A stretch of DNA of 49,270 nt from an uncultured Spirochaetia bacterium (lineage in GTDB: Bacteria; Spirochaetota; Spirochaetia; Sphaerochaetales; Sphaerochaetaceae): the NCBI GenBank assembly GCA_905236385.1, contig CAJOOY010000003.1, forward strand, positions 1 to 49,270, written 5' to 3'. Below the pieces are notes generated by a model, which had not been told where the DNA came from, ran no database searches, and saw nothing but the letters and a program-made list of their open reading frames with translations. Position 1 is the stretch's first letter, and each line of letters begins with the position of its first letter. The position numbers were made by a program, and so were the translations under genes. Positions 17,393-20,732 of this stretch are shown piece after piece.

Positions 17393-18319
17393 TCAGAAAG
17401 TGAACAGAACAAGGTCTGCACTTGTGCTTGATGCTACCGGCCTCTGGGGATGATAAACACCACCGTTGTTGTATATCCAGTCGTACAGGGAAGAGAGGGT
17501 TACTTCATTTCCGCTCTTGCATAAAACTGTGCCCAGGTATGGATTCAGAAGGCTTGAATCATCCCAGCCGAGAGCCTTGAGAAGCACACTGGTGAATTTG
17601 CTGTGATGGTATCCGGCAGATGAGGATGTGGTGTAGTAGCTGCTGGCAGTAAGAGCAAATATGTCAGGGTATGCAACATTTATCTCACTGTTAAGGAAAA
17701 CCCGGAATATGTCCGTATCTTCATAGAGACTGCTGTCTGAAGAAATGTTGTTCGGAGGAAGAGCTCCGCCGGAATAGCAGGAATCAAGGATTATCAGTTT
17801 TGTTCCAGGGATGGTGCTCAGATCCTCAAAAAGGTCTGTAATCCTGTACTCGTCATAAGTATGTCCGCTGTTTTGCGTGGCCAGAAAAAGGTCCTGAGTA
17901 AAGCCGTTTTCATAGGAGACTTTTGAACTGTTTGCTGAATCTCCATGGCCGCTGAAGTAGAAAACGGTTATGTCTGTCCCCATTGCTGTTTCCATAACTT
18001 CATTGATTGCGCTTTGTATGTTTGCAGTTGTTGGGGAAGAATAATCAGTTATCCCGTATTTGCTTATCTCTGAGGTGTCTGAGCCCAGAATGTAGTGAAT
18101 ATCAATGTTCCCTCCGCTGAGGCTTTCAAAGCATTTGGCAACCTGGACGGCATCGTCAATATCCTTGGAAAGGTCTGTCGGTGCAGAATCTTTGTAGTCG
18201 TAGCCAACGGCTATCATGTGGTACTTCCTGTTCTGGGCATAGGGGTCTGAGGAGCAGGAGATGAGGGTGAGGCTTATGAGTAAGAGGCAGATAAATGTAA
18301 GCAGTAGTTTCTTTCTCAT
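17393..18319 (-). CDS. Caspase-fold (peptidase C14-like) lipoprotein
   Basis: A 308-aa predicted lipoprotein: signal peptide with lipobox LISC, lipidated Cys22, then a caspase-like domain. The catalytic dyad is visible as H125 in VFYFSGHGD and C181 in LIILDSCYSGG, the standard spacing and context of bacterial caspase homologues (CHF/orthocaspase type). The DIDDAV stretch near residue 53 is the usual helix before the catalytic core. Being exported, it would act in the periplasm or at the cell surface. Start overlaps the preceding gene's stop by four bases. Last gene of a row ychF, lipoprotein, barrel-like protein, caspase-like protein; no terminator is obvious before nifS. Confidence 0.87.
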   Translation of the reverse strand: MRKKLLLTFICLLLISLTLISCSSDPYAQNRKYHMIAVGYDYKDSAPTDLSKDIDDAVQVAKCFESLSGGNIDIHYILGSDTSEISKYGITDYSSPTTANIQSAINEVMETAMGTDITVFYFSGHGDSANSSKVSYENGFTQDLFLATQNSGHTYDEYRITDLFEDLSTIPGTKLIILDSCYSGGALPPNNISSDSSLYEDTDIFRVFLNSEINVAYPDIFALTASSYYTTSSSAGYHHSKFTSVLLKALGWDDSSLLNPYLGTVLCKSGNEVTLSSLYDWIYNNGGVYHPQRPVASSTSADLVLFTF

Positions 18320-18867
18320 CTTCCACCTCCGTGTACGCTAAGGCCCACGCCAAAGCTTAAACCCAAAATATCTTTTCTATAGGTCATGTTGATTGGGAAG
18401 ATAAGACTTAAGTAGTCTTTGTCCGGATTCCCTAGTCTGTAGCCAACAGCTGTCTCTGCCGTGAAGGCAAGAAACTCGTCCTGGGAGTTAAAGTAGCTGC
18501 AAAAGAGCATGCGTGCCTTCAAAGAAGCCGTGAACCTGGAAGAGGGGAAACTGTACAGAAGCTTCAAGTTTGGTCCGTAAGCCACAAAACCCTTGAGGCA
18601 GAGGTTGTGGTAGGCTTGTGTCCTTGAGTTAAGAAAAACAGAAATGCCTGCAGTAACTGAGAGATTGTCAACTCTTATACCCAAATCCACGTCTGAAAAC
18701 ACTGATAGTCCAGCTCTTGCGCCACCAACGTTATTTAAATAGTCGGCAGTGGGAATATTCAAAGTACCGGTTAAGCCTATATCACCTTCCGCTTTAAAGT
18801 GCACATCGGCAGCGGCACTGAAAAGAAGAGAGAACAGTAGTATGATTATTAAAGTTATTCGTTTCAT
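18316..18867 (-). CDS. Small exported beta-rich protein, barrel-like
   Basis: A 183-aa protein with a signal peptide (KRITLIIILLFSLLFSAAA) and a mature part made of alternating beta strands rich in aromatic and small residues, consistent with a small outer-membrane barrel of about eight strands. I recognise no family. It ends in HGGGR rather than an aromatic residue, so the barrel reading is not certain. It lies between a lipoprotein gene (two bases upstream) and the caspase-like lipoprotein (four-base overlap), which suggests a joint envelope function. Confidence 0.68.
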   Translation of the reverse strand: MKRITLIIILLFSLLFSAAADVHFKAEGDIGLTGTLNIPTADYLNNVGGARAGLSVFSDVDLGIRVDNLSVTAGISVFLNSRTQAYHNLCLKGFVAYGPNLKLLYSFPSSRFTASLKARMLFCSYFNSQDEFLAFTAETAVGYRLGNPDKDYLSLIFPINMTYRKDILGLSFGVGLSVHGGGR

Positions 18868-18869
18868 GT

Positions 18870-19601
18870 TCAGAACTCACAATAGAAGTATATTTCTTCA
18901 TGCAGGAGCAGGAAGTCTATGAGCGGGAAGGTGAATTCCACGCTCTTCTCGGAAAGTTTTGTCCCGTTGGTACTGACTATGTCCATCGGGGTGTTGATGA
19001 TTATTCTGACGGAGGAAGCATCTATGCTCTCAGGGCCATCTTCCCCAAGAACAAAAGATACCAGATCCTTATAATCTTCCTCTGTCAGGTAATCGTACGG
19101 AGGATTGTTGTACTTTGGTCCCCAGACCTCAAAGTTCGGATCTGCGAGGAAGGGGAGGATGGAGGAAAGAACGTCATAATTCTCAAGACTGATTTTAAGT
19201 GTTAACCGGGTTCTGTTGTTTGAGCTCTTAAGAGTTATCAGATCCTGGTCTTTGTACTCTCCGCTGAGCTCTTCAAGAAGGAGGGTAAAGTCAGAGAAGT
19301 CAAACTCTCCGGTATATGAGTGCTCGTCTGTTTTTGTGAAAAGCACGTTCCCGGAGTAGGGACTTTCACTCAGCTTTCTGGCAAAGGACTCTATGGCAAC
19401 ATCTGTTACAGGATCATTTGAGCCTGAGTCTTTCCATGAAGAAAGATCCTCCAGAACTCCTTCAAAAAAGGAATCTGTTCTGATTGAGCTGAGGCTCGAG
19501 CCTGAGACTCTGTCATCCAGGTTCAGGTTTGAGGTAACCTGACATGAAACAAGAATAGAGAGTATCAGAATCAGAAACATGGCTTGGATAATCTTTCTCA
19601 T
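18870..19601 (-). CDS. Lipoprotein of unknown function
   Basis: A 243-aa predicted lipoprotein: MRKIIQAMFLILILSILVSC gives a lipobox LVSC at Cys20, followed by Gln. The mature part is acidic and serine-rich with no domain I can name; a stretch of beta strands fills the second half. A purine-rich ribosome site (GAAGGG) precedes the ATG. It begins 30 bases after ychF and is followed closely by the barrel-like protein and the caspase-like lipoprotein. Confidence 0.72.
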   Translation of the reverse strand: MRKIIQAMFLILILSILVSCQVTSNLNLDDRVSGSSLSSIRTDSFFEGVLEDLSSWKDSGSNDPVTDVAIESFARKLSESPYSGNVLFTKTDEHSYTGEFDFSDFTLLLEELSGEYKDQDLITLKSSNNRTRLTLKISLENYDVLSSILPFLADPNFEVWGPKYNNPPYDYLTEEDYKDLVSFVLGEDGPESIDASSVRIIINTPMDIVSTNGTKLSEKSVEFTFPLIDFLLLHEEIYFYCEF

Positions 19602-19631: not shown

Positions 19632-20732
19632 TCAGACGTTGAATCTGAAGTGCATTATATCTCCATCCTGGACAACATATTCCTTGCCTTCCAGCCTGAG
19701 TTTTCCAGCTTCCTTGACCTTGGCTTCCGAACCGTATTTGAACAGATCTTCACAGCTGTAGACCTCAGCTCTTATAAAACCTTTTTCAAAATCCGTGTGG
19801 ATGACTCCGGCAGCTTGAGGAGCCTTGCTACCCGCCTTGAAGGTCCAGGCGCGGTCTTCATCGCTTCCTGCAGTAAAGAAGGTTCTCAGCCCTAGGGTTG
19901 CGTAGGCGGTTCTGATGAGGGCGTTCATGCCGCTCTCCTTCAGCCCCAGGTCCTCAAGGAACATGGCCCTGTCTTCTTCATCCATCTCCGCCAGCTCTGC
20001 CTCTGTCTTGCCACACATGCACACCACCGGAGCGTTCTCTGCGGTGGCTATAGCCTTAACAGTCTCAACAAAGGCGTTTCCGGTTGAGATAGAGCCTTCA
20101 TCTATGTTGCAAACATAAATTACGGGTTTCATTGTTATCAGGCACAGGTCCTTAATCATTTCGGCTTCTTCAGCTTCAGTGACAACAGAGCGAGCCGGTT
20201 TTCCGTCCTGAAGGGCGTTCATCAGCTTCTCGTAGATTGGAAGAAGAACAGCGTTCTCCCTGGCTTCTTTTGAAACCCTGTTTAATCGACTTTGCTTTTC
20301 ATAACGCTTAGTTACGGTCTCAAGGTCTGCCAGAGCAAGCTCAATGTTAATGGTTTCAATATCGCCCGCAGGGTCAACTTTATTATTCACATGTATGACA
20401 TCCGGGTTCTCAAAGCACCTCACCACGTGGGCAATTATTCCAACTTCCCTGATATTGGCAAGGAATTTGTTCCCCAGACCCTCTCCCTTTGAGGCTCCAG
20501 CTACCAGGCCGGCAATATCTACAAACTCCGTCACGGCCGGTATGACCTTGGCGGTTGGGATGAGGCTCACTATCCTGTCCAGCCTCTCATCAGGTACGTT
20601 CACCACGCCCACATTTGGCTCAATGGTGCAAAACGGATAGTTGGCGGCCTCTGCCGGTGCACTTGTCAGTGCTGAGAAGATTGTCGATTTCCCTACATTC
20701 GGTAAGCCTACTATTCCGCAATTTAAACTCAT
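19632..20732 (-). CDS. ychF: YchF/Obg-family ATPase
   Basis: A 366-aa cytoplasmic P-loop protein of the OBG family that prefers ATP, associated with ribosomes and oxidative stress. G1 is GLPNVGKST (residues 9-17), G3 is DIAGLVAGASKGEGLGN, G4 is the YchF form CNIDE, and the C-terminal TGS domain includes GFIRAEV and QDGDIMHFRFNV. Full length for the family. A TATAAT box (20763-20768) and an AGGAG site precede it; the promoter is divergent from that of rlmN. Confidence 0.95.
   Translation of the reverse strand: MSLNCGIVGLPNVGKSTIFSALTSAPAEAANYPFCTIEPNVGVVNVPDERLDRIVSLIPTAKVIPAVTEFVDIAGLVAGASKGEGLGNKFLANIREVGIIAHVVRCFENPDVIHVNNKVDPAGDIETINIELALADLETVTKRYEKQSRLNRVSKEARENAVLLPIYEKLMNALQDGKPARSVVTEAEEAEMIKDLCLITMKPVIYVCNIDEGSISTGNAFVETVKAIATAENAPVVCMCGKTEAELAEMDEEDRAMFLEDLGLKESGMNALIRTAYATLGLRTFFTAGSDEDRAWTFKAGSKAPQAAGVIHTDFEKGFIRAEVYSCEDLFKYGSEAKVKEAGKLRLEGKEYVVQDGDIMHFRFNV

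Follow-up and report, generated by a model that had tools for sequence, protein, structure and literature searches.

A gene for a small outer-membrane beta-barrel and a gene for a caspase-fold lipoprotein seem to form an ancient two-gene envelope module in the class Spirochaetia. On the explanation that we favour with moderate confidence, the lipoprotein is an active Arg/Lys protease that the barrel docks and controls in the outer membrane. We studied the pair starting from a 49,270-nucleotide stretch of one contig of an uncultured Spirochaetia bacterium (the window), in which the two genes follow a gene for an LppM-like lipoprotein (Table 1). Discussion of bacterial caspase homologues has mostly placed them in the cytoplasm, in cell death or defence, and the pair suggests that they do envelope work too. 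In most Sphaerochaetaceae, caspase homologues belong to a conserved envelope gene set with a near-invariant active site and lipid anchor.

Table 1. Features of the barrel-caspase locus, in window coordinates.
Feature	Position	Strand	Basis or remark
LppM-like lipoprotein, 243 aa	18870..19601	-	PF21946, 25.2 bits; neighbour of the conserved pair, not a member
Eight-stranded outer-membrane beta-barrel (predicted) with signal peptide, 183 aa	18316..18867	-	AlphaFold2 model, Foldseek, HMM
Caspase-fold (C14, metacaspase-type) lipoprotein, 308 aa	17393..18319	-	PF00656, PDB profile matches, Foldseek
Codon of lipobox Cys22 (LISC)	18254..18256	-	Column Cys in 112/114 relatives
Codon of Asp56, predicted S1-pocket Asp (TbMCA2 Asp95 equivalent)	18152..18154	-	Asp in 114/114; aligned with the NDV Asp of AtMC4
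Codon of catalytic His125 (SGHG)	17945..17947	-	His in 113/114
Codon of Asp179 (DSC; TbMCA2 Asp211 equivalent)	17783..17785	-	Asp in 113/114
Codon of catalytic Cys181 (DSCYSG)	17777..17779	-	Cys in 112/114
ychF (context), likely ancestral neighbour of the LppM-like gene	19632..20732	-	ychF adjoins the LppM-like gene in L115-L118, without the pair

The three open reading frames (ORFs) lie on the minus strand as the sequence-only reading had described them, with a two-base gap between the LppM-like ORF (ending at 18870) and the barrel ORF (starting at 18867), and a four-base overlap of the barrel stop codon with the caspase ATG at 18316-18319. In translation, the LppM-like protein carries its own lipobox (LVSC, Cys20). 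Between 15518 and 20732 the genes ychF, LppM-like, barrel, caspase, nifS and nifU are co-directional with short gaps, and they may be read as a single transcript in the window's genus.

Loci were found through C14 matches in 150 related genomes, and about 100 of them were fetched and their genes called. In the class Spirochaetia, mostly Sphaerochaetaceae, a caspase-family gene immediately follows the barrel at 102 of the 107 testable barrel loci (non-truncated barrels with enough downstream sequence), and at 84 of these its start codon sits at exactly -4, the four-base overlap. The loci counted were selected partly by the caspase; one subset was selected by the barrel where Pfam showed no C14 match, and there a caspase relative was still the next gene in most. 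Because the arrangement recurs so widely, it is not a chance one, and the earlier proposal that the caspase has a dedicated barrel partner is borne out, although translation by itself could account for coupling this tight. Most often the genes run ABC permease, ATPase, barrel, caspase and uvrB, with uvrB on the opposite strand and the transporter of thiamine type, as judged by its substrate-binding protein. Locus comparison also revealed duplicated variants, barrel-caspase-barrel-caspase and barrel-caspase-caspase. At one Sphaerochaeta locus (L140 / L161) the first caspase gene behind the barrel is fragmented and further copies come after it.

The barrel profile matched 109 of the 150 relatives. 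Among these are members of at least some fifteen further families of the class, in a few cases with weak scores; in a sample spread evenly over the phylum, strong matches were restricted to the window's family. The matches are to Sphaerochaeta, Pleomorphochaeta, Bullifex, Candidatus Ornithospirochaeta and further Spirochaetales, which makes Sphaerochaetaceae the most likely family of the window. Of around 33 caspase loci from outside the spirochaetes, none had the barrel alongside. Some genomes of the same family lack the pair, so it is not essential there. Carriers in culture include Sphaerochaeta halotolerans and Bullifex porci, which makes an extracytoplasmic caspase role directly testable.

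The caspase protein belongs to family C14 by its match to PF00656 (43.5 bits, cut-off 21.4), and its profile matches in the PDB are to plant and yeast metacaspases and to TbMCA2. Its AlphaFold2 model (pLDDT 83, pTM 0.84) has the caspase-haemoglobinase fold, with metacaspases as the best Foldseek matches (AtMC9 on top, E 3e-12; TbMCA2, E 2.5e-7). The Pfam search of the protein returned no C25 (gingipain) match, and it is not assigned to that family. The signal peptide and lipobox place the caspase domain outside the cytoplasm, with the folded part starting about ten residues past the lipid anchor. The window alone had been read as encoding a caspase homologue that is exported, lipid-anchored and intact in its His-Cys dyad, and these features are kept far beyond it.

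Across 114 aligned caspases, the exceptions in the key columns of Table 1 are few: both at the lipobox Cys are gaps, those at Cys181 are one truncated sequence and one Ala, and the single one at Asp179 is truncated. Asp56 and Asp179 correspond to Asp95 and Asp211 of TbMCA2, which are S1-pocket residues (PMC4357240), by a mapping made through alignment with AtMC4, not from a co-crystal. The two would provide the acidic S1 pocket, for a basic P1 residue, of metacaspases and orthocaspases, and from these residues Arg/Lys specificity is predicted. Since the lipobox Cys, His, Cys and S1 Asp pair are near-invariant, the family is probably an active, membrane-tethered, metacaspase-type (Arg/Lys) protease under strong selection. 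One locus (L063) has a pseudo-caspase, with Lys and Ala replacing His and Cys, as a single dead copy upstream of an intact pair, before rather than after the barrel. Downstream of the lipobox Cys (the 18248-18256 region in the window), Glu occupies +2 in 78 of 144 rows and Leu occupies +3 in 90 of 144, repeats included; the window's caspase has Ser-Ser at these positions. The conserved residues are possibly a sorting signal.

The barrel ORF has no Pfam match; barrels of relatives match OMP_b-brl weakly. AlphaFold2 predicts eight strands behind a signal peptide (pLDDT 94.1), and Foldseek finds NspA as the top PDB match of the model (E 1.4e-6), along with OmpA, Ail and OmpX. The model thus points to an outer-membrane barrel of the eight-stranded size class. 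A profile built from barrels of other genera scores the window's barrel at 98.7 bits, and with a profile of the barrels of the window's family, most of those from other families reach 26-72 bits, against no more than 14 for reversed controls; on these profile scores, the barrels are one sequence family. Polar or charged residues are conserved at positions 46, 51, 53, 83, 164 and 166, at the rim that is predicted to face outward if the termini are periplasmic, which is a hint and nothing firmer as regards partnership. The outer half of the strands showed no difference in overall conservation from the periplasmic half (p 0.24), and so we dropped barrel conservation as a guide to whether docking is at the surface or on the periplasmic side.

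From the co-encoding, the lipobox and the intact active site, together with folds predicted with good confidence, we infer activity, partnership and substrate as follows. The lipid-anchored caspase homologue would act outside the cytoplasm and cleave after Arg or Lys; the barrel would dock and control it in the outer membrane, by confinement or switching; and the protease so confined or switched would process particular envelope or secreted proteins. Tree distances of barrel and caspase have a partial correlation of 0.30 with three neighbour genes controlled (permutation p 0.001), compared with 0.38 for the permease-ATPase pair and 0.15 for barrel and ATPase, which weakly backs the partnership. 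An 'export device', one of the roles offered by the sequence-only reading, is improbable here, since a folded 30-kDa domain would not fit through the narrow inside of an eight-stranded barrel.

The pair could instead be an enzyme and its ward, the caspase trimming or degrading the barrel, for quality control or to shed loops, and the gene coupling balancing enzyme with substrate. We consider this rather unlikely. It would suit coupled genes in a 1:1 ratio, and also a barrel that evolves faster than its neighbours (median tree distances: barrel 3.8, permease 1.7, UvrB 0.6). However, barrel-caspase-caspase loci have two or three caspases for one barrel, and in the barrel alignment no conserved basic position could be recognised as a cleavage site, although the rim does keep two arginines, R51 and R164.

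It is also improbable that the caspase is a surface enzyme working on extracellular proteins, in nutrient proteolysis or peptide defence, with a barrel that helps to bring it to the surface or keep it there. Surface exposure is common among spirochaete lipoproteins, and the conserved polar and charged positions of the barrel lie at its predicted extracellular rim; yet threading would need a wider pore than a barrel of this size offers, and the loci hold no nutrient-uptake genes with the pair save the thiamine-type ABC transporter.

The LppM-like lipoprotein is very unlikely to be a third subunit of a functional three-gene operon, the unit proposed by the sequence-only reading. The two-base gap in the window, a tight adjacency in a second genome of the genus too (G001) and the lipoproteins, of a different family, that follow a paralogous pair in the window's genome would all fit such a unit. 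But the LppM-like gene is present in 121 of the 150 genomes across the class, nearly always as a single copy, and was seen next to a pair in no genus but the window's (G000, G001), so the three-gene operon is local; in relatives whose pair sits elsewhere, the gene adjoins ychF. Conservation of the three-gene order in related spirochaetes had been set in advance as the test, and only its barrel-caspase part held; as a conserved unit, the three-gene operon is ruled out by synteny. As a member of the LppM family the protein falls slightly short, since its score against the mycobacterial LppM domain lies under the PF21946 cut-off of 27. Most likely the pair moved behind ychF and the LppM-like gene in the window's genus, in which case the lipoprotein would be a bystander, joined to the pair once it had relocated there.

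A defence or programmed-cell-death effector, after the manner of cytoplasmic bacterial caspases, is rejected as barely credible: its one point is a weak PADLOC caspase match (31.5 bits), whereas the signal peptide makes the caspase extracytoplasmic, the genes in conserved synteny are housekeeping ones (uvrB and those of the thiamine-type transporter) and not defence islands, and no sensor, effector or toxin partner was seen at the loci.

The spirochaete family shares with bacterial metacaspases and orthocaspases (MEROPS C14, PF00656) the fold, the His-Cys dyad and the S1 Asp pair; it differs in its conserved lipoprotein anchor, its constant barrel partner and its single-domain build, without STAND, sensor or effector domains. 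A 2012 survey of prokaryotic caspase homologues lists OmpA-domain genes in 14 metacaspase operons, multi-metacaspase operons in four groups only, none of them the window's group, and many possible signal peptides (PMC3501461), and no spirochaete barrel pair was found in the text consulted. We found no named system with the pair in the openly searchable literature, in line with the sequence-only reading, which knew of none for the three-gene set. Within the literature searched, the pair would be new as a variant of the C14 caspase homologues.

The barrel shares its eight strands, about 160 mature residues and a signal peptide with NspA, the OmpA N-domain, OmpX and Ail (Foldseek E 1e-6 to 1e-4), and differs from them in lacking a Pfam family and in having, almost without exception, a caspase gene directly after it. 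Gingipains and PorU (clan CD, family C25, type IX secretion) are surface proteases with barrel partners. The spirochaete pair may be analogous to them in combining a putative clan CD surface protease with a barrel; however, the profile and fold matches of the window's caspase are to C14, not C25, and no type IX secretion genes were noticed at the pair's loci. More speculatively, and with doubt prevailing, the pair might be a spirochaete-specific outer-membrane maturation system, in which a lipid-anchored metacaspase sits on an eight-stranded barrel of its own and cuts exported proteins after Arg or Lys; sortase or PorU-type processing would be its functional counterpart.

Genes downstream of the pair were considered as conserved substrates and rejected, the apparent ORFs being mostly alike and placed opposite uvrB, and therefore read as uvrB antisense. 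A genuine barrel-caspase-lipoprotein-lipoprotein subtype is limited to the window's genus and genera close to it. Another contig of the window's genome carries a second pair of barrel and caspase genes (G000:C23; L002 / L053), with a divergent barrel (27 bits) and two more lipoprotein genes after it. The same four-gene set occurs in two loci of the same genus (L034, L035), and L039 and L062 have sets like it. In seven loci of one genus (L061, L066, L079, L094, L130, L136 and L137), the gene 3' of the caspase encodes a small membrane protein (about 125-156 aa).
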